A stretch of 64,000 bases of DNA from Hwanghaeella grinnelliae (GCF_004005845.1 NZ_SADE01000001.1:2108001-2172000), one strand, 5' to 3'. Shown: positions 53,937 to 64,000, counted from the first letter of the stretch. Numbers and translations are program-made. Notes: a model not told the origin generated them from the letters alone.

Positions 53937-54050
53937 ATCGACGCCTAAAACGGATGCGGTGCGATCGTTGTTCCGGATCGGGATAAGCACTACGATACCT
54001 TTCCCGCGGCTCGAAAGGGCCGGAAAATGCGATACGGAATAGAGGCGAAT

Positions 54051-55985
54051 ATGGCGGAAAAGAGTATCATGAATCTCCTCCCCGGGCCGGTGAACGCGGT
54101 GATCGGCGCATGTCTTTTCGGCGGCGGATCGATCCTGATCGCCAGCATGATTTCAGCCCTGGTCTCGCCCGAACCCTCACAAGACATCGCGGCGGGCGGA
54201 AAAGCCCCGCAAACCGAAGCAGCCGCGCCATTAGAAGGTACCGCCAAGGAAGCCGTCGCGCCGGAACCCCCGACCGCTGAAACGGCCGCCCCCGCACCAA
54301 GCGCCACGCCGGTCGAGGCAGGGAAATACATGATCGCCGCCGCCCATCCCGCAGCCGCCCAGGCCGGCGCGCAGATACTGGAAAACGGCGGCAGCGCGGT
54401 AGATGCGGCGATTGCCGCGCAAATGGTGCTGAATGTTGTCGAACCGCAATCGTCGGGCATCGGCGGCGGGGCCTTCATGCTGCATTGGGACGAGTATAAA
54501 CGCCGTCTCGACAGCTATGACGGCCGCGAAACGGCGCCCGCCAAAATGAAGCCGGATGCCTTCCTAACCGCGGGCGGCGAGCCCAAACGCTTCATGGATG
54601 CCGTGATCGGCGGTGCGTCGGTCGGCGTGCCCGGCCTGCTGAAAATGCTGCATATGGCGCATCAGCGGCACGGAAAGCTGCCCTGGGCTGACCTGTTCCA
54701 GCCTGCCATCCAATTGGCGGAAAACGGTTTTCCCGTCAGTGAGCGGCTCTACAGCCTGCTTGTGCGGACCGAAGGCCTGCGCGGCAATCCGGTCACGAAC
54801 GATTATTTCTACACTTTCACCGGCGCCCCGAAGGCGATCGGCACGATCCTGAAGAATCCGGATCTGGCGGAAACCTTCCGCCTGATCGCGGAGGAAGGGC
54901 CGGATGCTTTCTATGACGGGCCGATCGGCCAGGATATCGTCGACGCGGTTCGCAACGCGCATCGGAACCCCGGCGTCATGACCGCAACCGACCTGGCCGG
55001 CTACGAGGCCAAGCGCCGCGCGAATCTGTGCGGCCGGTACCGCGAGCGGCTGGTCTGCGGCATGGGCCCGCCCTCCTCCGGCGGTTTCACGGTGCTCCAA
55101 GCACTCGCCGTGCTGGACGAGTTTCCCTTGGACGAATACCGGCCGGGCGCCCCCGGCACGATTGCCCTTGTCGGGGAAGCCTCGGCACTGGCCTTCGCGG
55201 ATCGGAACCATTACCTGGCCGATGAGGACTTCGTGGACGTCCCCATCAACGCCTTGTTGGAAAACGCCTATATCCGCGCCCGGGCGGGCTTGGTGGACCG
55301 TGCGATGGGTGAGAAATCCAAGAAGCAGCCCGGCCATCCGCGCGGCAAACAGGCGGCCGCCGATACCTCGCTGGAATTGCCCTCGACCACGCATATCTCG
55401 ATCATCGATGCGGACGGCAACGCGGTTTCCATGACCAGCAGCATCGAATCCGGCTTCGGATCACGGGTGATGGTGCGCGGCTTCCTGCTGAACAATCAGC
55501 TGACCGACTTTTCCTTCCTGGCGGAACGGGACGGCAAACCCATCGCCAACCGGGTCGAGCCCGGCAAACGCCCGCGCAGCTCCATGGCCCCAACCCTGGT
55601 CTTCGACGAGGACCGCGAATTGGAAATGGTCCTGGGCTCCCCCGGCGGCAGCCGCATCATCGGCTATGTCCTGCAATCGATCCTGAACACGGTGGACTGG
55701 GAAATGGACCCGCAAGCTGCCGTCTCGCAGCAACACTATTTGAGCCGTAACAGCGGCGTCGAGGTCGAAGACGGCATGGCCGCCGGCACGGTGGAGCAGT
55801 TGGAAAATCTAGGCTTCACCGTCAAGCAACGGAGCATGACCAGCGGGCTGCACATGATCGTCAAACAGGACGACAAACTGCTGGGCGGCGCGGATCCGCG
55901 GCGCGAGGGCACGGCCATCGGGGAAAGTCAGGTCCTGCCGAACCTGGAAAAGGCTTTCGATTTCATTCAGGCAGGAGCGGACTGA
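54051..55985 (+). CDS. ggt: gamma-glutamyltransferase
   Basis: 644 residues. The N-terminal hydrophobic signal/anchor (about 12-35) is followed by an Ala/Pro/Glu-rich linker (KEAVAPEPPTAETAAPAPSA). Catalytic features are the autoprocessing and nucleophile Thr in SLELPSTTHISIIDADGNAV, plus MTSSIESGFGS and SSMAPTLVFDEDREL, and GSPGGSRIIGY. It hydrolyses or transfers the gamma-glutamyl group of glutathione in the periplasm. ATG 54051 was chosen for GAGG upstream; ATG 54027 would add eight residues. Stand-alone gene. Confidence 0.92.
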   Translation: MAEKSIMNLLPGPVNAVIGACLFGGGSILIASMISALVSPEPSQDIAAGGKAPQTEAAAPLEGTAKEAVAPEPPTAETAAPAPSATPVEAGKYMIAAAHPAAAQAGAQILENGGSAVDAAIAAQMVLNVVEPQSSGIGGGAFMLHWDEYKRRLDSYDGRETAPAKMKPDAFLTAGGEPKRFMDAVIGGASVGVPGLLKMLHMAHQRHGKLPWADLFQPAIQLAENGFPVSERLYSLLVRTEGLRGNPVTNDYFYTFTGAPKAIGTILKNPDLAETFRLIAEEGPDAFYDGPIGQDIVDAVRNAHRNPGVMTATDLAGYEAKRRANLCGRYRERLVCGMGPPSSGGFTVLQALAVLDEFPLDEYRPGAPGTIALVGEASALAFADRNHYLADEDFVDVPINALLENAYIRARAGLVDRAMGEKSKKQPGHPRGKQAAADTSLELPSTTHISIIDADGNAVSMTSSIESGFGSRVMVRGFLLNNQLTDFSFLAERDGKPIANRVEPGKRPRSSMAPTLVFDEDRELEMVLGSPGGSRIIGYVLQSILNTVDWEMDPQAAVSQQHYLSRNSGVEVEDGMAAGTVEQLENLGFTVKQRSMTSGLHMIVKQDDKLLGGADPRREGTAIGESQVLPNLEKAFDFIQAGAD

Positions 55986-56104: not shown

Positions 56105-56560
56105 ATGAAAGCACGCCTGGACTATTTCAAAGCCTCGCCCAAAGTCATGAAAGCCATGGTCGGTCTGGAACAGACCGTGCGCGATAGCGGGCTGGAATAC
56201 AGCCTGATCGAGCTGGTGAAGACGCGCGCCTCGCAGATCAACGGATGTGCCTATTGCATCTATATGCACACAACCGACGCCCGGAAGGCCGGCGAGACGG
56301 AGGAGCGCCTGTACCTGCTGTCCGCATGGCGGGAATCCTCGCTTTATACAGACCGCGAGCGCGCCGCCCTGGCCTGGACCGAATCCCTCACCCTGGTTGC
56401 CGAGACCGGAGCGCCGGACGATGTCTATGAGGGCCTGGATCCGCATTTCACCGATGAGGAGAAAGTGAACCTGACGATGCTGATCGGCGCGATCAATGTC
56501 TGGAATCGGATCTCGGTCGGTTTCCGCGGCCAGCATCCGGCTGCGGCAAATGCAGCCTGA
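56105..56560 (+). CDS. AhpD/carboxymuconolactone decarboxylase family protein
   Basis: 151 residues, all-helical. The redox motif CAYC (48-51) with a following His (CAYCIYMHT) is the AhpD-type active centre, giving peroxidase or disulfide activity. GAINVWNRISVGFRG is the typical C-terminal helix. It has a GGAG site upstream and overlaps the ECF41 sigma gene by 11 bp. CMD-family genes are a standard partner of ECF41 factors, so this is very likely a target of that sigma factor. Confidence 0.9.
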   Translation: MKARLDYFKASPKVMKAMVGLEQTVRDSGLEYSLIELVKTRASQINGCAYCIYMHTTDARKAGETEERLYLLSAWRESSLYTDRERAALAWTESLTLVAETGAPDDVYEGLDPHFTDEEKVNLTMLIGAINVWNRISVGFRGQHPAAANAA

Positions 56561-57470
56561 TATCGTCACCCCGAACCGGGAGGCCGCGTTCGCTACCGAG
56601 CGCGGCCGGCTGATCGGTCTGGCCTATCGCATGCTGGGCACCCGCGCGGATGCCGAGGACGTGGTGCAGGACGCCTGGCTGCGTTGGCGGAAGGTCCCGG
56701 TCATGGATGTGGAGAACCCGGCCGGCTATCTGTCGACCATTGTCACAAGGCTGTGCCTGGACCGGTTGAAACAGGCCCGGCGCCGGCGCGAGTTATATGT
56801 CGGCCCTTGGCTGCCGGAACCGGTCCTGACCGATCCGAGCTATGCGCCCCCCTCGATGGAAACCTTGGACCGCGACGTTTCCTTCGCGCTGATGACCGCG
56901 TTGGAGCGGCTGTCCCCACTGGAACGCGCCGCCTTCATTCTGCACGACATCTTCGAAACGCCTTTCCCTGAAATCGCCGTTCTGCTGGACCGAAGCGAAG
57001 CGGCTTGCCGGCAGCTCGCCAGCCGGGCGCGCGGCAATATCGCCAACAACCGCGCCCGGTTCGAAGCGGAAGCAGGCTCAGCGGATAAATTGGCGGATGC
57101 ATTCTTCGCCGCGGCGCGTGACGGTGACACGGATCTGTTGAAACGCGTGCTTGCCCATGACGCGCAATTGCATACCGATGGCGGCGGCCGCAAGGCAGCG
57201 GCCCTGAACGTCATCAAAAGCGCTGACAAGATCACCAGGTTCTTCGCCGGCCTTGCCCGCAAACCCGCCATCGGCCCGCCGATCCTGACACGACGCGCTT
57301 TGGTCAACGATCTTCCCGCCCTGCTAACGCTGGAGCATGACGGGACGCGGCAAGCCGCGATGGTCGAGATCGTCGACGGCCAAATCAGAACCGTCTATAT
57401 GATCCGCAACCCGGAGAAGCTGGAGCGCCTTTGGGCCGATACCAATCTGGGCGACGTTGAATTTTCGTGA
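56550..57470 (+). CDS. ECF41 family RNA polymerase sigma factor (SigJ-like)
   Basis: 306 residues. Sigma2 spans about 14-80 (AYRMLGTRADAEDVVQDAWL); the ECF41 linker WLPEP is at 87-91; sigma4 is at about 110-168 (PFPEIAVLLDRSEAACRQL). A C-terminal SnoaL-like domain carries DGGG (210-213) and NPEKL (287-291), the ECF41 hallmarks by which the extension controls activity in place of an anti-sigma factor. ATG 56550 overlaps the AhpD gene. The promoter at 56026-56052 indicates autoregulation. Confidence 0.93.
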   Translation: MQPDIVTPNREAAFATERGRLIGLAYRMLGTRADAEDVVQDAWLRWRKVPVMDVENPAGYLSTIVTRLCLDRLKQARRRRELYVGPWLPEPVLTDPSYAPPSMETLDRDVSFALMTALERLSPLERAAFILHDIFETPFPEIAVLLDRSEAACRQLASRARGNIANNRARFEAEAGSADKLADAFFAAARDGDTDLLKRVLAHDAQLHTDGGGRKAAALNVIKSADKITRFFAGLARKPAIGPPILTRRALVNDLPALLTLEHDGTRQAAMVEIVDGQIRTVYMIRNPEKLERLWADTNLGDVEFS

Positions 57471-57473
57471 GGA

Positions 57474-58844
57474 CTAACCGCTTTTCAGCAACAGTTTGCG
57501 CCGCACCCGGACCGTCAGAATGACCGATGACATCCCCATGCCGAACGCCATGCCGAGCCAAATTCCCTGAACGCCCAGACCCGCGGGGAAAGCCAGAAGC
57601 CCCGCCGCCGGAACTCCCAGCAGGGCAAAGCACAGGATGGAGGTGACGGCGGGCGCGCGCGGGTCGTCCAACCCTTGCAGCACACCGGTCAGAACGATGC
57701 GGCCGCTATCGACGACAAGCAGCAAGGATCCGAAAAGCATCAGCGGGGCCGCGAGCGCGATCGTTTCGTCGGCCAACGGCACATCCGCCCCAATGAAGAG
57801 TGGAACCAGTCCATTGCGGCCAAGCCCGATGGCCACGGCGAAAAGGATCATCCCGCCGCCCCCGATGGCAACCGCATTGCGGATCGCCCTGCCCCGCGCC
57901 GCGCCGTGATCCCGCCCATCATTGAAGGCGACACTGATCGCCGCCGCCTCACTGAACCCCAGGGCAAGGGCGATGCCGATCTCGGACAACTGCAGCACGA
58001 TCGAATGCGCCGCCAGGGGAACGGGGCCCAGATAGCCGACAAGTATGGCCACGACCGCGAAAAAGGCCATGGTGGCCGCCTCCAAGACTGCGAAAGGAAC
58101 GGCATAGCGCAACACCGGCTTGATCTGCCGCCATACCGCCAGATGTACCCGCCAAGCGCGCCACAGGCCATCGAAAACGGATATCCGCCAAAGCCAAAGC
58201 CCCAAGGCCAAAGCAGTGAGCAAACCGGTCAAGGCGGTGCTAATCCCCGCCCCCGGCAGTCCAAACGCGGGTATTCCGACCGCGCCGAAGATGAACACAT
58301 AATTGCCCACGAAATTCACCGCCACAGCGGAAACCGACATGGCCAGGACGGCCCGTCCATGACCGTGTGCCGACGCGATGGACCACAACCAGCCATGCAC
58401 AAAGGTGAACGGCAGCGCGAGCGCCAGCCAATGCGCATAGGACCCGGCCAGTTCGGAAAGCAGAGCATCCTGCCCCACAGCCAGCAGAACCGGTTCCATC
58501 GCGGCGATGAAGGCGATGCAAGGCAACATGGCCAACCCCAGCGAAAACGCCGACGCGGCCAAGGCATTCGCGGCCGATGCCGTATCGCCCGCCCCCAGAT
58601 ACCGGGACAGCAGCGGGCCGACGCCGATGGCAAATCCGATCCCCGCAAAGGAGAGCATCAGATAGATCGAACTGGCGAGCGTCGCCGCCGCCAATTCCGG
58701 CGCACCGAGCCGCCCGATCATCGCGACGTCGGTCACGCCAATGGCGATATGCGCCAGATTGGCCAAGCCCAGGGACATGCCCAGGCGGAACAGGTCCGGC
58801 GTCCTTGTGGCTGTGTTGTCGACCGTCTCGACAAGATCAGACAT
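57474..58844 (-). CDS. MATE family efflux transporter
   Basis: 456 residues with 12 predicted helices in two homologous halves. Family features are AHIAIGVTDVAMIGRLGAPELAAATL in TM1-2, and GVPTALVVWA-like repeats with GLPGAGISTALTGL in the middle. It exports cationic compounds in exchange for Na+ or H+. It converges with the ECF41 gene (3-bp gap between stops) with no terminator between. Confidence 0.92.
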   Translation of the reverse strand: MSDLVETVDNTATRTPDLFRLGMSLGLANLAHIAIGVTDVAMIGRLGAPELAAATLASSIYLMLSFAGIGFAIGVGPLLSRYLGAGDTASAANALAASAFSLGLAMLPCIAFIAAMEPVLLAVGQDALLSELAGSYAHWLALALPFTFVHGWLWSIASAHGHGRAVLAMSVSAVAVNFVGNYVFIFGAVGIPAFGLPGAGISTALTGLLTALALGLWLWRISVFDGLWRAWRVHLAVWRQIKPVLRYAVPFAVLEAATMAFFAVVAILVGYLGPVPLAAHSIVLQLSEIGIALALGFSEAAAISVAFNDGRDHGAARGRAIRNAVAIGGGGMILFAVAIGLGRNGLVPLFIGADVPLADETIALAAPLMLFGSLLLVVDSGRIVLTGVLQGLDDPRAPAVTSILCFALLGVPAAGLLAFPAGLGVQGIWLGMAFGMGMSSVILTVRVRRKLLLKSG

Positions 58845-59027: not shown

Positions 59028-59852
59028 TCAGCTTCCGATCTTCAGCGGCTGCACGAGGGCCTTCAAGGCCGCGATGGTGCTGAGCGGGGTGAGTTTGCCG
59101 GTGGCCGGGTTCTCTTCCGTGGGGACGCCCGCTATGGACATCTCAAACGACACCTCCGCGGCATCCACCTCGATCACATGGGTGTTTCGGGTCACCCCCG
59201 GATCGGCCCAGATTTCATATTGCGTCTCATCCGGTCCGGCGCCCGCCAACGATAGCGCGACCGCCACATTCACATTCGCTGGGAATTTCTGGGCCGCGTC
59301 GCGGACGGAGCCTTGGTAAAGCCGCAACGGTTCCGACAGGTCGGACAGGTCGATCCCCTGCTCTATCACGAACGGCGCCTTGGCGAGGCCGGCCGGCGGT
59401 TTGCGGGTTCGCATGGTGACCGACCGCAGCGTCCCCTCCGCCGCGGCGCGGACCGCGTCCAAGCCCAGCAGCGCGCCGGTCGGCACGATGATCCGCGCGC
59501 CGGTTTCCGTTGCGAGATCGACAATGTCCCAATTCACGAGCAATTGGGTCACGCTGAGGGGCATCAAGACCTTTCCCGCCTTCACCGTCGGTTCCGCGAC
59601 CGCGCGGAACAGGTCGGGCGGCAGACATTCGACGACCACATCGGCCGCCTCCGCCAGGTCACCGGGCGATAAATAACTGGGTTGATGCGTCAGTCCCGCC
59701 AATTTGGTCCGCGCCGAGCTTTCGCTGGAGGCAGTGGCCGCAACAAGGTCGAGGCCTTGCCCCAAAGTCCGCGCGTCATCGCTATCCAGCCATTCGGCCA
59801 CCTTCAGACCGACAGCCCCCAACCCGGCCAAAGCCACCTTCACCTGTGCCAT
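59028..59852 (-). CDS. aspartate dehydrogenase-like NAD(P) oxidoreductase
   Basis: 274 residues. The N-terminal Rossmann domain has VKVALAGLGAVGLKVAEWL; the middle has VVVECLPPDLFRAVAEPTVKAG and IIVPTGALLGLDAV; the C-terminal domain NVNVAVALSLAGAGPDETQYEI and VTRNTHVIEVDA match the L-aspartate dehydrogenase family. Such enzymes convert aspartate to iminoaspartate for NAD or amino-acid metabolism. ATG 59852 is preceded by GGGGAAACGAGG; the frame is open to 59936. The real substrate may differ, since no nad genes are near. Confidence 0.78.
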   Translation of the reverse strand: MAQVKVALAGLGAVGLKVAEWLDSDDARTLGQGLDLVAATASSESSARTKLAGLTHQPSYLSPGDLAEAADVVVECLPPDLFRAVAEPTVKAGKVLMPLSVTQLLVNWDIVDLATETGARIIVPTGALLGLDAVRAAAEGTLRSVTMRTRKPPAGLAKAPFVIEQGIDLSDLSEPLRLYQGSVRDAAQKFPANVNVAVALSLAGAGPDETQYEIWADPGVTRNTHVIEVDAAEVSFEMSIAGVPTEENPATGKLTPLSTIAALKALVQPLKIGS

Positions 59853-59906
59853 CCTCGTTTCCCCTGTAATCCATTTCGCCGCATGACTGTAATGCTCCGC
59901 ACCAAA

Positions 59907-59943
59907 ACAAGAAACGGGCGATGCCGTCGCCAGCATCGCCCGT
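59907..59943 (-). terminator. terminator of the tetrahaem cytochrome gene
   Basis: A perfect 11-bp inverted repeat ACGGGCGATGC/GCATCGCCCGT with an 8-base loop is followed on the minus strand by TTTCTTGTTTT. It lies 37 bp after the stop at 59980. Confidence 0.8.
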
Positions 59944-59979
59944 CTCGATCAAATTACAAGGTAAGGAGTGTCGTCGTCC

Positions 59980-60852
59980 TTACTTGTATTTAGTCGGCAA
60001 CATCGATCCCACCTGACCGGTGAAATCCTTGCCCTTGATTGCTTCGCCGAATGCCCGGCCCGCCTCGTCGGTGGGGTTGGCAAGCACATCGGCGGCTTCA
60101 GGAATAGCGCTCAGCACTTCCTTGGCCTTGGCGATGCGCTTGTTCTGCGCTTCGACATATTTCGCATTGTCTGTCTTGCTGATGGCATCCGTCGCGCTGA
60201 CCAGCGCCGCCGCCTGACCAACGAGGAAGTAAACCGACTTCTGAGCATCGGTCATTTCCTGGTTGTTCTTCACATCCGGAGGATAGAAGCGGTGACGCAC
60301 GACGCCTTGGCTGTATTCGACCAGTTCAAAGCCCGGGTTCAACGGATGACCGTTTTCAAGCATCGTCGCAGCGGTATCGCCCGGCAGGTTCGGATTGGCC
60401 AAACCATGGCAGGACATGCAGTTCGACGCGATGTCATAAATCATCGACGAATGGATCATACCCTTGGCGATGCCGTCTTGAATCGAGTTCGGGTTCTTCT
60501 TGTCGTTATGGATATCGATCCATTCCTTGGCGGCGCCGTGACAGCTTTCGCAGGACGGGCCCGCTTCGGCTTTGCCATCGATCACCGTGTAGTGGCACAT
60601 GACGCAGGTATCGGACTTCTTCATCCGACGGTCGCCGACGGCCTTAACGATATCTTTCGCCTTCTTGTCCCGGTGGATTTCCTTGAAGGACGAGAAGTGC
60701 GGCGTGCCTTCCCAGACACCATGTTCAGCGGTGTGACACTTCTTACAAGCGTCCGGACCGACATTGTCAGCTGCTGCTGCACCGGCGGTTCCGAATACGG
60801 CGGTAAGGAGAGCCGCCGCAAACGCCGCCCGGAAAATTCTTTGGATCATCAT
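59980..60852 (-). CDS. tetrahaem c-type cytochrome (cytochrome c554-like)
   Basis: 290 residues. The signal peptide is cleaved near AAAADN (about 28). Four c-haem motifs are visible: CKKCH (36-40), CVMCH (83-87), CESCH (101-105) and CMSCH (145-149). The spacing and the HHE/His content (PHFSSFKEIH, KEWIDIHND, GHPLNPGFELVEYSQGVVRHRFYPP) fit the cytochrome c554/NrfA-related multihaem group. The C-terminal third is helical without haems. It is periplasmic and carries electrons. ATG 60852 or 60849 is preceded by GGGG. It has its own promoter and terminator, next to the porin and multihaem genes. Confidence 0.87.
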   Translation of the reverse strand: MMIQRIFRAAFAAALLTAVFGTAGAAAADNVGPDACKKCHTAEHGVWEGTPHFSSFKEIHRDKKAKDIVKAVGDRRMKKSDTCVMCHYTVIDGKAEAGPSCESCHGAAKEWIDIHNDKKNPNSIQDGIAKGMIHSSMIYDIASNCMSCHGLANPNLPGDTAATMLENGHPLNPGFELVEYSQGVVRHRFYPPDVKNNQEMTDAQKSVYFLVGQAAALVSATDAISKTDNAKYVEAQNKRIAKAKEVLSAIPEAADVLANPTDEAGRAFGEAIKGKDFTGQVGSMLPTKYK

Positions 60853-60926
60853 TTGTCCCCGACTGTTGTTGCCTGGGCCCAGTTGGGCATCCACTGTTCG
60901 CCCCGCCGACCATCGGTAGAGCTGGA

Positions 60927-60961
60927 TCACATCACGGAACCACTATAGTGCTCGTGTGTGA
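60927..60961. promoter_or_regulatory. nested dyad upstream of the tetrahaem cytochrome
   Basis: The palindrome CACTATAGTG (60941-60950) is centred inside an outer imperfect repeat TCACATCACG/CGTGTGTGA. It lies 75-109 bp upstream of the start and could be a regulator site; the inner part also resembles a TATAGT -10 box. The rest of 60853-61112 shows nothing recognisable. Confidence 0.3.
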
Positions 60962-61112
60962 CCGTGTTCTTTCGGTTGCCGTAGCCGCGCGGGGAAAAAG
61001 TGACCCGTCGCGCGTCCCCTGACACCGTTATGCTCCAGACTAACGTTTGCCGGAATCCGATGCAAGGAACGACCACGCAATCCTATGTACCTCAGTTCAC
61101 AAAAAACTGAAC

Positions 61113-61150
61113 TAAAAAAAATACGGCCCCCGCTTTAAACGGAGGCCGTA
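61113..61150 (-). terminator. terminator of the beta-barrel protein gene
   Basis: The stem ACGGCCTCCG.../...CGGGGGCCGT on the minus strand is followed by eight T. It lies 62 bp after the stop codon at 61212 and closes the porin transcript before the tetrahaem gene. Confidence 0.82.
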
Positions 61151-61211
61151 ATTTTATTACCCATTTCAACCGGTTACCGGGACATCCCAGTATTCGGCCT
61201 TAAGTTTGAGC

Positions 61212-62771
61212 TTAGAACTTGCGGCGCAGTTCAAGACGGGCGCCACGAATATCTTCGTTGTCCGTCCGCCAACCGTAAATTCCGTCCGCCCGAACAATCC
61301 AGGCCGGAGAAATCGGAAGTTGGTAGCGGAAACCGATGGCATATTCGTCATCCGGCACCGCGCGGTTCGCGCTGAACCCGCCGAGCCGCTGCGACGTCGC
61401 CGCTTCCACAACGATCTGCTGGTGCAAGTCGAATAGATACTGAATACCGATCGCGCCGCCATATGCGTCCTGGGCACTGTCGTTCAGTTTCGGGAAGTTC
61501 GTGATGCCCGGGTTCTCGAAAGTGATACCCGTATTCTTCAGAAGGCCTGTATTGTCCGTCAGCGGTTGCGGACGGTCGAAACCAATGAAGAAGTTGGCAT
61601 AAGGAATCAGTGTCGAGGGAAGATGCGTAATCAACGAATTTTCCACCAACAAGACGAAACCGTCTGCCGTCTGATCCGCACCGTTGTCTCGATCCTGACC
61701 GAAGGTCCAGATCGCACGGGCGCTGTTGGAAAGCCATCTGTTGTAGCGTTTTGAGAACGCGACCGTCAGACTGTTGAAGGACTGATCGTCGAACCCGTCA
61801 TGCCCTTCCAGGCGGCCGTATCCGAATTCCCAGTAACCTTCCATGGCTTCCACAAAACCGGCGACGCCATAAACGTCGAGGTTATGTTTCGCGCGCTTGC
61901 CGTTGCCGTCGAGGATCGCGGGATTTTCAACATTATCCCAGCCACCGAAGAAGGTGAAATCCATGTTGGATATGGTCAAGGCAGGGCTGTTTTTCGCCGG
62001 TATGGTGAACGCCGCCCCGGTGAAGATTTCATCCACCCAGACACCATTCTGGAAAATCATCGGCATCAAGCCGAAAGCGACCGGCAGATCGAAGCCTGCG
62101 TCCTTGCCCATCAGACCTGACGCGATCTGACCAATATCACCTTCGAAGAACAGAGCCTCGATATTGCCGTTGATCTGTTCCTCACCGCCGTCTTCGTCAT
62201 CACCGAAGAATTCGTACCGGGTTGCGTTTCCGTCCCGATCAAACGGTTCAACAAGGGCGTGGATACGCTCGGTCCCCGTGAGCTTGAGGTCGATGTCCAG
62301 GTTGGCGTCGATCGCGATCTGGCCGCGTTCGTCGTTACCATTGTCGTTATATTCGACGGCGGTTTTAACGTCCCCATAGATGGCCAAGGCCGGGAAAACG
62401 AGGTTCCGTTCACCAATAATGTTGATACCGGGTTGGAACGGGCCTTCTGTGTACTGAGGCCGCCCCAATTCAAGCAGCGGACGCGGTGTCGGTGCCGGCC
62501 GCTTTGCCCCATAGATCTCAAACTGAGCCTGCGGGTCGTAGGGCTTGTCCTCATAGCTAGGATCGTCCCCAAAATACTCGGGATCGTGCTCCACCTTCGT
62601 CGCTTCGGGCGGAATGATCGATTCCGTTTTGACCCCTTCCGCGGCCCCCCATGCATCTACCGACAGCAACGACAGGCTTAGTGCCGTTGCCGCCAGCAGG
62701 ACCGACATCGCGGCGCCGTGACGCCCGAAAGATGCATCTGAGACCACCTTACTCTCACCAGTTCTTTTCAT
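61212..62771 (-). CDS. outer-membrane beta-barrel protein (putative porin partner of cytochromes)
   Basis: 519 residues. A signal peptide (hydrophobic core AAMSVLLAATALSLSLLSVDAWG, about 20-42) precedes a Pro/Glu-rich periplasmic leader, then many amphipathic beta-strands (e.g. NIIGERNLVFPALAIYGDV, YWEFGYGRLEGHDG, YGGAIGIQYLFDLHQQ, AYAIGFRYQLPI-like). It ends in the C-terminal Phe (ELRRKF) that outer-membrane barrels use for assembly. It lacks a recognised family. It starts 17 bp after the stop of the partial multihaem-type gene, so the two are co-transcribed. Context suggests a porin-cytochrome unit. Confidence 0.75.
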   Translation of the reverse strand: MKRTGESKVVSDASFGRHGAAMSVLLAATALSLSLLSVDAWGAAEGVKTESIIPPEATKVEHDPEYFGDDPSYEDKPYDPQAQFEIYGAKRPAPTPRPLLELGRPQYTEGPFQPGINIIGERNLVFPALAIYGDVKTAVEYNDNGNDERGQIAIDANLDIDLKLTGTERIHALVEPFDRDGNATRYEFFGDDEDGGEEQINGNIEALFFEGDIGQIASGLMGKDAGFDLPVAFGLMPMIFQNGVWVDEIFTGAAFTIPAKNSPALTISNMDFTFFGGWDNVENPAILDGNGKRAKHNLDVYGVAGFVEAMEGYWEFGYGRLEGHDGFDDQSFNSLTVAFSKRYNRWLSNSARAIWTFGQDRDNGADQTADGFVLLVENSLITHLPSTLIPYANFFIGFDRPQPLTDNTGLLKNTGITFENPGITNFPKLNDSAQDAYGGAIGIQYLFDLHQQIVVEAATSQRLGGFSANRAVPDDEYAIGFRYQLPISPAWIVRADGIYGWRTDNEDIRGARLELRRKF

Positions 62772-62788
62772 TGGATTGCCCCAGACCC

Positions 62789-64000
62789 TTAATTAACGTC
62801 GAATTCAACGGTGTAGGCGTGGAAGTCGAGCATCCATTCATTCATGGACTGCTCCATATCCACGGTCGACCCGACGAACTTCATGAAATAGATCGGCTCG
62901 GCGCGGCTACGCAGGCGAACTGACAACTTATACTTACCCGGTTTGGTCAGCAGTTCACCCGGTACAGAGTAGTCGGCCGTCTTGCTGCCCAGCGGCGGGA
63001 TCGAGCGACCTTCCATGCGAACGAAAGGCGCATGGTTCAGGACCGTCGTCGGCTGCGGTGCCGGGCGGAGGAACGGACGTTGGTCGATATCCAGGTTGAT
63101 CGGCAGATACATCTCCCGGTCAGTCCCCTTGACGTTGGTCGTCAAGAACTTGGTCTGCAAGTTGAATATCTGGTCGTCATACGGAACGGTACCGGCCGCC
63201 ACGTCGAGCGAATGGATATCCGCAAAGTCGCCATTGCTGTCGACATAACCGGATTCCCAAACACGTTTACCATCCGGATCGGTCAGGGCGACGTTCAACC
63301 AGATTTCGGGTTGGGCGCCGAGTGAACCGGACGGCAGGTTATGACCTTCGTCGATGTTGTTGATGACATAGGCGAAGTCCAGATCCGAACCGGCCTTGCG
63401 GCTGCCGTCGAAGAACGGACCGTCGATGCGGCTGCCGTTTTCCATGACCTGCTTGCGCAGTTCACGCTTTTCTTCCAGGGCGGCCAAATTGACCTCGATG
63501 ATGGCCCAAGCGTCTTCACGGTCACCGATATCGAACCAGGCGAACGGGAAGTCAACATTCAGGCTGTCCTTCGCAGCATGCAGATCTGCCCTAAATTCCG
63601 GGGACGCCGCCGGGATCGTCGCGTTCAACGCGGCGAGCTTGTCGGCCAAGTCCGCAACCTGTTCTTCGGTCGGCGGATTCCCCCTGAAGCTTTCGAGCGT
63701 TTCGACAACCGCCGTATAGGCATCGTCAAAACCAGCAGCTGCACCGAGATTGCTTTCCACATTGGACAAGCGTGCCGAAACGGCATCGACCAGGGCAGCA
63801 TCGCCCCCCATGTCAGCGGTCAAGTCACGTACCGTGGCAAGCGCCTCACGGGCTTCGTCGAGGGCTTCGTCGGCTCCGTCGGTATCCAGAATACCGTCCA
63901 CCGGTTCCAACCGTGCGAGCATCCGATCGAGGCCCTTCTCGGTTTCAAAACCGACGGTACCGCGTTCGATATTGCGCTCGATGGCTTCCAGACCGTTGAA
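62789..64000 (-). CDS. C-terminal part of a probable multihaem cytochrome (partial, runs off window)
   Basis: The frame is open without a stop from 62789 to the right edge, so at least 403 codons belong to the C-terminal portion; the N-terminus lies outside. The visible part is an all-helical acidic region followed by a beta-sandwich. That beta domain contains FAYVINNIDEGHNLPSGSLG and ALTDPDGKRVWESGYVDSNG, which resemble the GHxLPSG...G..V..SG C-terminal domain of multihaem cytochromes. No CxxCH occurs in the visible part, so haem content is inferred. Immediately upstream of the beta-barrel gene. Confidence 0.6.
   Translation of the reverse strand, partial: FNGLEAIERNIERGTVGFETEKGLDRMLARLEPVDGILDTDGADEALDEAREALATVRDLTADMGGDAALVDAVSARLSNVESNLGAAAGFDDAYTAVVETLESFRGNPPTEEQVADLADKLAALNATIPAASPEFRADLHAAKDSLNVDFPFAWFDIGDREDAWAIIEVNLAALEEKRELRKQVMENGSRIDGPFFDGSRKAGSDLDFAYVINNIDEGHNLPSGSLGAQPEIWLNVALTDPDGKRVWESGYVDSNGDFADIHSLDVAAGTVPYDDQIFNLQTKFLTTNVKGTDREMYLPINLDIDQRPFLRPAPQPTTVLNHAPFVRMEGRSIPPLGSKTADYSVPGELLTKPGKYKLSVRLRSRAEPIYFMKFVGSTVDMEQSMNEWMLDFHAYTVEFDVN

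Follow-up and report, generated by a model that had tools for sequence, protein, structure and literature searches.

In a 64,000-nucleotide stretch of the 5.3-Mb genome of the alphaproteobacterium Hwanghaeella grinnelliae (GCF_004005845.1, NZ_SADE01000001.1:2108001-2172000; this whole stretch is called the window), and in the sequence that continues it past position 64000, seven genes, all on the minus strand, lie together as a cluster that we hypothesize to be a PCC4 (subgroup II) porin-cytochrome cluster forming a redox chain that spans the cell envelope (probability about 0.78). PCC4 was described in 2017 by He et al. as a putative system, recognised from gene order, in which a porin accompanies periplasmic cytochromes of 4, 5 and 10 haems, without an extracellular cytochrome and with a five-helix inner-membrane protein that carries two WX3HX13H motifs and SGXXG; in its subgroup II a PF13247 iron-sulphur gene lies upstream of the gene for the inner-membrane protein (PMC5566968). 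We file the Hwanghaeella locus under PCC4 because each feature of that description is present: a porin gene clustered with three multihaem cytochromes of 4, 5 and 10 haem sites, an inner-membrane protein with both WX3HX13H motifs and SGXXG (P0005), a PF13247 gene directly upstream of it (P0006), and no predicted extracellular multihaem cytochrome. The locus is a further example of an already predicted system and not a new kind, now with a fuller anatomy. The original prediction had proposed a conduit of unfamiliar type from three genes, namely a tetrahaem cytochrome, a barrel with a terminal Phe and a protein with a GHxLPSG-type domain encoded 17 bp from the barrel gene. All three lie where it put them, and they do belong to a conduit-type porin-cytochrome cluster unlike MtrCAB; the cluster has seven genes, however, and its type had already been published as PCC4 (PMC5566968).

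The genes are listed below in window coordinates, which for the extended sequence equal the coordinate in our extract L003 plus 59000.

59980..60930, minus strand: P0001, tetrahaem c-type cytochrome of the c554 family, with a signal peptide and four CxxCH; likely start M at 60852
61212..62771, minus strand: P0002, outer-membrane beta-barrel with a signal peptide, a C-terminal Phe and about 18 predicted strands
62772..62788, no strand: 17-bp gap between the pentahaem stop and the barrel start
62789..64000, full gene to 65206 in the extended sequence, minus strand: P0003, pentahaem cytochrome with five CxxCH, its C-terminal part with GHNLPSG being within the window
65559-67625, beyond the window, minus strand: P0004, decahaem cytochrome, upstream of P0003
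67639-68475, beyond the window, minus strand: P0005, di-haem b membrane protein with two WX3HX13H
68457-70181, beyond the window, minus strand: P0006, cyclic-nucleotide-binding protein with four [4Fe-4S], directly upstream of P0005
70267-72309, beyond the window, minus strand: P0007, FHA-FAD/NAD-2Fe2S reductase with FAD, NAD and 2Fe-2S motifs

The barrel and the pentahaem cytochrome are almost inseparable across Pseudomonadota, Verrucomicrobiota and Planctomycetota. Among 289 genomes drawn from the class, the barrel was found in 24, the pentahaem protein in 24 and both in 22 (Fisher p about 1e-28, a figure that ignores kinship), and in the two genomes with a barrel alone a contig start truncates the barrel. 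Scanning 84,980 species genomes yielded 206 barrel loci, and in the 80 named loci that were kept the pentahaem gene adjoins the barrel gene in 76, with haem numbers of 5, 10 and 4 that are nearly invariant. The carriers are Alpha-, Gamma- and Betaproteobacteria, Verrucomicrobiota and Planctomycetota, nearly all of them uncultured aquatic genomes; the hosts published for PCC4 are mostly marine Alpha-, Gamma- and Zetaproteobacteria and Planctomycetes, with predictions from Hyphomicrobium, Zetaproteobacteria and others (PMC5566968). The closest named relative is a Hwanghaeella metagenome-assembled genome (L069; barrel identity 76%).

In relatives the remaining cluster genes are sometimes on the opposite strand or replaced by an alternative set, and in the barrel tree the loci with this set fall within a single clade (support 99/97). 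The set comprises a decahaem cytochrome in which an N-terminal FHA domain replaces the eight-Cys head, an 800-residue cyclic-nucleotide-binding Fe-S protein and a tetrahaem protein of 430-470 residues; it is often on the opposite strand and has no FNR-type reductase (L093, L096, L108-L110, L112-L114, L127, L133, L138, L143). Four loci bear labels that probably belong to mislabelled metagenome-assembled genomes (L093, Mesoflavibacter; L080, Rhizobium sp. Q54; L133, Klebsiella pneumoniae; L136, Bordetella parapertussis), and L093 appears identical to record G011, a genome of the family to which the Hwanghaeella locus belongs.

The haem motifs of the three cytochromes are not chance occurrences, because the counts of 5, 10 and 4 are kept across homologues: five are retained in 70 of 77 homologous pentahaem open reading frames (most exceptions being split or cut by a contig end), ten in 48 of 52 decahaem homologues and four in 51 of 55 tetrahaem homologues. 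P0001 matches the Pfam family Cytochrome_C554 (E=8.9e-9) and, besides its four CxxCH, has further His residues that are conserved across relatives (H78, H141, H195 and H213). Extension of the sequence past 64000 bore out the expectation that the gene upstream of the barrel encodes a multihaem protein; the complete P0003 holds five CxxCH, so the refutation by a lack of haem motifs there fails. In P0003 a signal peptide precedes the five CxxCH (all invariant across 23 homologues); a helical insertion comes next, and the C-terminal domain, rich in beta structure, carries GHNLPSG. The insertion, at residues 380-540, joins the pentahaem and beta domains and is long in few relatives only (L037, L042). 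A lipobox was looked for in P0001 and P0003, the cluster holding only three multihaem cytochromes, and none was found. The decahaem P0004, whose ten haem sites are all kept across relatives, has eight conserved Cys in a cytoplasmic head followed by a single membrane helix. At the N-terminus of P0004 (L003:8330-8560) and of its homologues a four-Cys motif, W.CGR..G.PC..GP...G.C....EC.P, is duplicated and has no family match; the head possibly binds Fe-S or Zn.

Profile comparison places P0003 with the pentahaem superfamily of Thermochromatium tepidum cytochrome c552, to which it appears to belong (5ze8; E=1.3e-15, the best stretch being the haem domain and the rest weaker), with a weaker match to the selenoprotein cytochrome MccSep (E about 1e-4). 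The haem domain was modelled poorly, haem being absent from the prediction, and a Foldseek search with the whole P0003 model gave no match below 0.001, the weak ones being mostly Ig-like domains. P0003 has the domain order of T. tepidum c552, a beta domain bearing a related HxxPxG motif after the pentahaem domain, but it differs in its helical insertion of about 160 residues; to our knowledge the T. tepidum protein has no barrel partner. The c552 pentahaem family has been linked to Geobacter ExtKL and to archaeal cytochrome nanowires (PMC11976967). In MccSep, which is related to ExtKL, selenocysteine follows GHxxPxG, whereas the P0003 family has Ser there (79 of 84 motifs) or Phe. Assignment of P0003 to the ExtKL equivalog (NF040886) was rejected at 40.3 of 250 bits and for want of selenocysteine, as was an identity with the DmsE-type decahaem proteins MtrA and PioA (TIGR03508, 25.0 of 192.2 bits, five haems).

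The inner-membrane and cytoplasmic proteins extend the cluster towards a source of electrons. P0005 keeps exactly four His across its relatives, as two HX13H pairs (H79/H93 and H252/H266), which are the signature from which we take it to hold two stacked b haems. Its WX3HX13H motifs begin at W75 and W248, its SGXXG at S117, and both WX3HX13H are present in 55 of 57 homologues; by hydropathy, P0005 has four strong helices and its relatives have five. P0006 matches PF13247 (34.7 bits, cut-off 26.2) and keeps 16 Cys in four groups of four across relatives, and in P0007 the FAD, NAD and plant-type 2Fe-2S motifs are likewise kept. Among the 80 named loci an FNR-type reductase is present in 50, usually directly after the barrel gene, and the cyclic-nucleotide-binding Fe-S protein in 59. 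Because of those 50 loci, the chain would seem to begin in the cytoplasm at NAD(P)H and not at quinone, the partner that He et al. took for the inner membrane (PMC5566968). The cyclic-nucleotide and FHA domains suggest that the line is regulated through a second messenger and phosphorylation.

The barrel has no familiar family signature, as had been noticed from the window: P0002, which ends in LRRKF, has no match in Pfam or NCBIfam, none of 23 barrel homologues matches Pfam, no NCBIfam match recurs among them, and sequence searches of the PDB, single or by profile, returned nothing. Its structure was modelled with AlphaFold2 from 23 homologues (mean pLDDT 79.5, most strands above 85) as a barrel of about 18 strands. 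Foldseek and VIA-align group the model with the OprD/Occ channels and with AlgE (about 10% identity, Z 24-27, 312-348 residues aligned), among them OccK7/OpdQ (Z 27, 323 aligned residues, root-mean-square deviation 2.9-3.0) and AlgE at Z 25; MtrB is not among the structural matches listed. P0002 thus shares with OprD/Occ and AlgE a predicted 18-strand fold, and differs from them in that low identity, in having no family match and in the linkage of its gene to cytochromes. From simple barrel geometry the free width is estimated at about 22 Å, as against about 36 Å for 26 strands, and the modelled barrel would probably be too tight for a multihaem plug of the kind that MtrB encloses. In the model, the mature N-terminus, extended by about 85 conserved residues, should lie in the periplasm and the longest conserved loop, residues 401-435, should face outside; the lumen has both Arg and acidic ladders, its inward residues averaging 11.7 positive to 15.9 negative. 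One further region of the same genome (L066:4798-5613), near LolA-like and DUF1329-like genes and without cytochromes, weakly matches the barrel in its C-terminal part.

Among described systems, the locus shares with PCC4 the porin, the 4-, 5- and 10-haem cytochromes, the motifs of the inner-membrane protein, the PF13247 gene, other redox genes and a marine alphaproteobacterial host, and differs in that the reductase of this species and of its sister carries a fused FHA domain. With the Geobacter cluster extHIJKLMNOPQS it has in common a barrel and a pentahaem protein, the lack of a surface cytochrome and clustered 4-haem, 10-haem and b cytochromes (PMC5877670, PMC6148476), whereas the Rieske protein ExtO, the 12-haem ExtM and the rhodanese ExtH are peculiar to Ext, and ExtKL is a predicted selenoprotein. 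As in MtrCAB, PioAB and MtoAB, a barrel is paired with a periplasmic multihaem cytochrome, but the barrel has about 18 and not 26 strands and a pentahaem protein stands in place of the MtrA decahaem. Membership in MtrCAB/PioAB was rejected, in agreement with the original prediction, since neither the 23 barrel homologues nor the genome has a match to PF11854 (MtrB_PioB), and since about 18 strands are predicted and not about 26. The verrucomicrobial porin-cytochrome system was rejected too, its periplasmic cytochrome having eight haems (PMC5615132), as were the Oet and Omb conduits, which have differing haem counts and surface lipoproteins.

We infer the following course for the PCC4 chain. 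Electrons would pass from NAD(P)H through FAD to the 2Fe-2S centre of the membrane-anchored P0007, then to the four [4Fe-4S] of P0006, with its cyclic-nucleotide-binding domains, and across the inner membrane by the two b haems of P0005 to the decahaem P0004, anchored at the outer face of that membrane; the tetrahaem P0001 would shuttle them to the pentahaem P0003, which would dock on the periplasmic side of a dedicated outer-membrane barrel, P0002. Reduction outside and electron uptake are both compatible with this order.

For the last step we lean slightly towards a barrel that is a selective channel bringing a small or chelated substrate to P0003, over an MtrB-like sheath. Stated in full, and with a likelihood that we put close to an even chance, this sub-case of PCC4 has the barrel admit a soluble anion or metal chelate that P0003, a periplasmic terminal oxidoreductase, reduces or oxidises. 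It is consistent with the channel-type fold, the conserved outside loop, the two ladders in the lumen and the pentahaem family common to ExtKL and c552. By analogy, its best functional precedent would be ExtI of Geobacter, a barrel encoded with 4-, 5-, 10- and 12-haem and b cytochromes, for which, with ExtKL, a channel-type role with selenite and tellurite has been suggested; loss of extI impairs selenite and tellurite reduction and not Fe(III) citrate reduction (PMC5877670). The lumen, however, is not clearly cationic on the averages given above.

The other sub-case, a serious possibility that we rate somewhat below even, is a true conduit across the outer membrane, in which P0003, alone or together with P0001, would enter or traverse the barrel and so bring haems to the cell surface, as in MtrAB and PioAB. 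The constancy with which the barrel and pentahaem genes are paired and the conserved, predicted periplasmic extension of the barrel argue for it, as do the occurrence of PCC4 in iron oxidisers (PMC5566968) and the fact that PioAB and MtoAB likewise lack an extracellular multihaem cytochrome (PMC6344600). A cytochrome threaded through the barrel is nevertheless disfavoured, not decisively, because of the 18-strand OprD/AlgE-like fold and its estimated width, which lend no support to the earlier suggestion of a cytochrome placed inside the barrel; the large C-terminal beta domain of the pentahaem protein and the lack of a recurring redox lipoprotein nearby point the same way. A bolder proposal, which we regard as rather unlikely in its entirety, is that PCC4 is a non-sheath, NAD(P)H-driven line under cyclic-nucleotide and FHA control, whose c552- and nanowire-related pentahaem protein works through a narrow OprD-like channel; if true, it would be a second way to couple cytoplasmic reductant to the exterior of the outer membrane, and a widespread one among bacteria of sea and fresh water that are not regarded as metal respirers. 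A solute porin that has nothing to do with the cytochromes and merely adjoins their genes is a very improbable identity for the barrel, for all its OprD-like fold: the pairing is kept over three phyla, even where other genes have moved to the opposite strand, and the presence of the pentahaem protein in 22 of 24 carrier genomes contradicts it.

Several points weigh against the chain as we have drawn it. Membership in PCC4 is founded on published feature descriptions and not on sequence alignment, and the NAD(P)H end and the OprD-like barrel are readings added here; our literature search found no experiment on any PCC4. Quinone could be the electron partner of the inner-membrane protein, as He et al. 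proposed. The barrel model was built from 23 sequences at the mean pLDDT given above, with haem proteins absent, and 18 strands do not exclude a conduit, because ExtB of a Geobacter conduit is likewise predicted with 18 (PMC6148476). Some carriers, for example L057, L102 and L125, have little beyond the pentahaem and barrel genes nearby.

PCC4 has been a prediction since 2017; a Hwanghaeella-type genome is now seen to hold the complete set, and the barrel occurs at more than 200 loci of species genomes in three phyla. A chain that seems to start at an NAD(P)H reductase, together with a channel-like barrel, makes testable claims on electron transfer across both membranes in ordinary aquatic bacteria, and raises a sharper question about the role of the barrel in PCC4.

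Two terminator-like stems accompany the genes at the 3' end of the cluster.

59911..59946, minus strand: stem 3' of the tetrahaem gene, 16 pairs with a T-rich tail
61122..61150, minus strand: stem 3' of the barrel gene, 13 pairs with T8

Terminator-like sites numbered 15, with 13 expected from shuffles, and the stem at 59911..59946 is the longest; a promoter scan of the locus rose scarcely above shuffled sequence. A GC-rich hairpin with a T run (L003:6500-6545) lies within about 350 bp of non-coding DNA between the decahaem and pentahaem genes, on account of which the pentahaem-barrel pair may be a transcription unit of its own. Among relatives, the flanking genes included no recurrent functional neighbour outside the seven and the neighbourhoods no recurring redox lipoprotein, and a plasmid collection searched for named annotated relatives gave no match. 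Beside the cluster are genes for a gamma-glutamyltranspeptidase (54027-55985), a MATE exporter (57474-58844) and an aspartate dehydrogenase (59028-59936), with no link to the cluster seen. At 56105-57470 a carboxymuconolactone-decarboxylase-like gene overlaps an ECF sigma factor gene, an ordinary arrangement that resembles the known ECF41 one.

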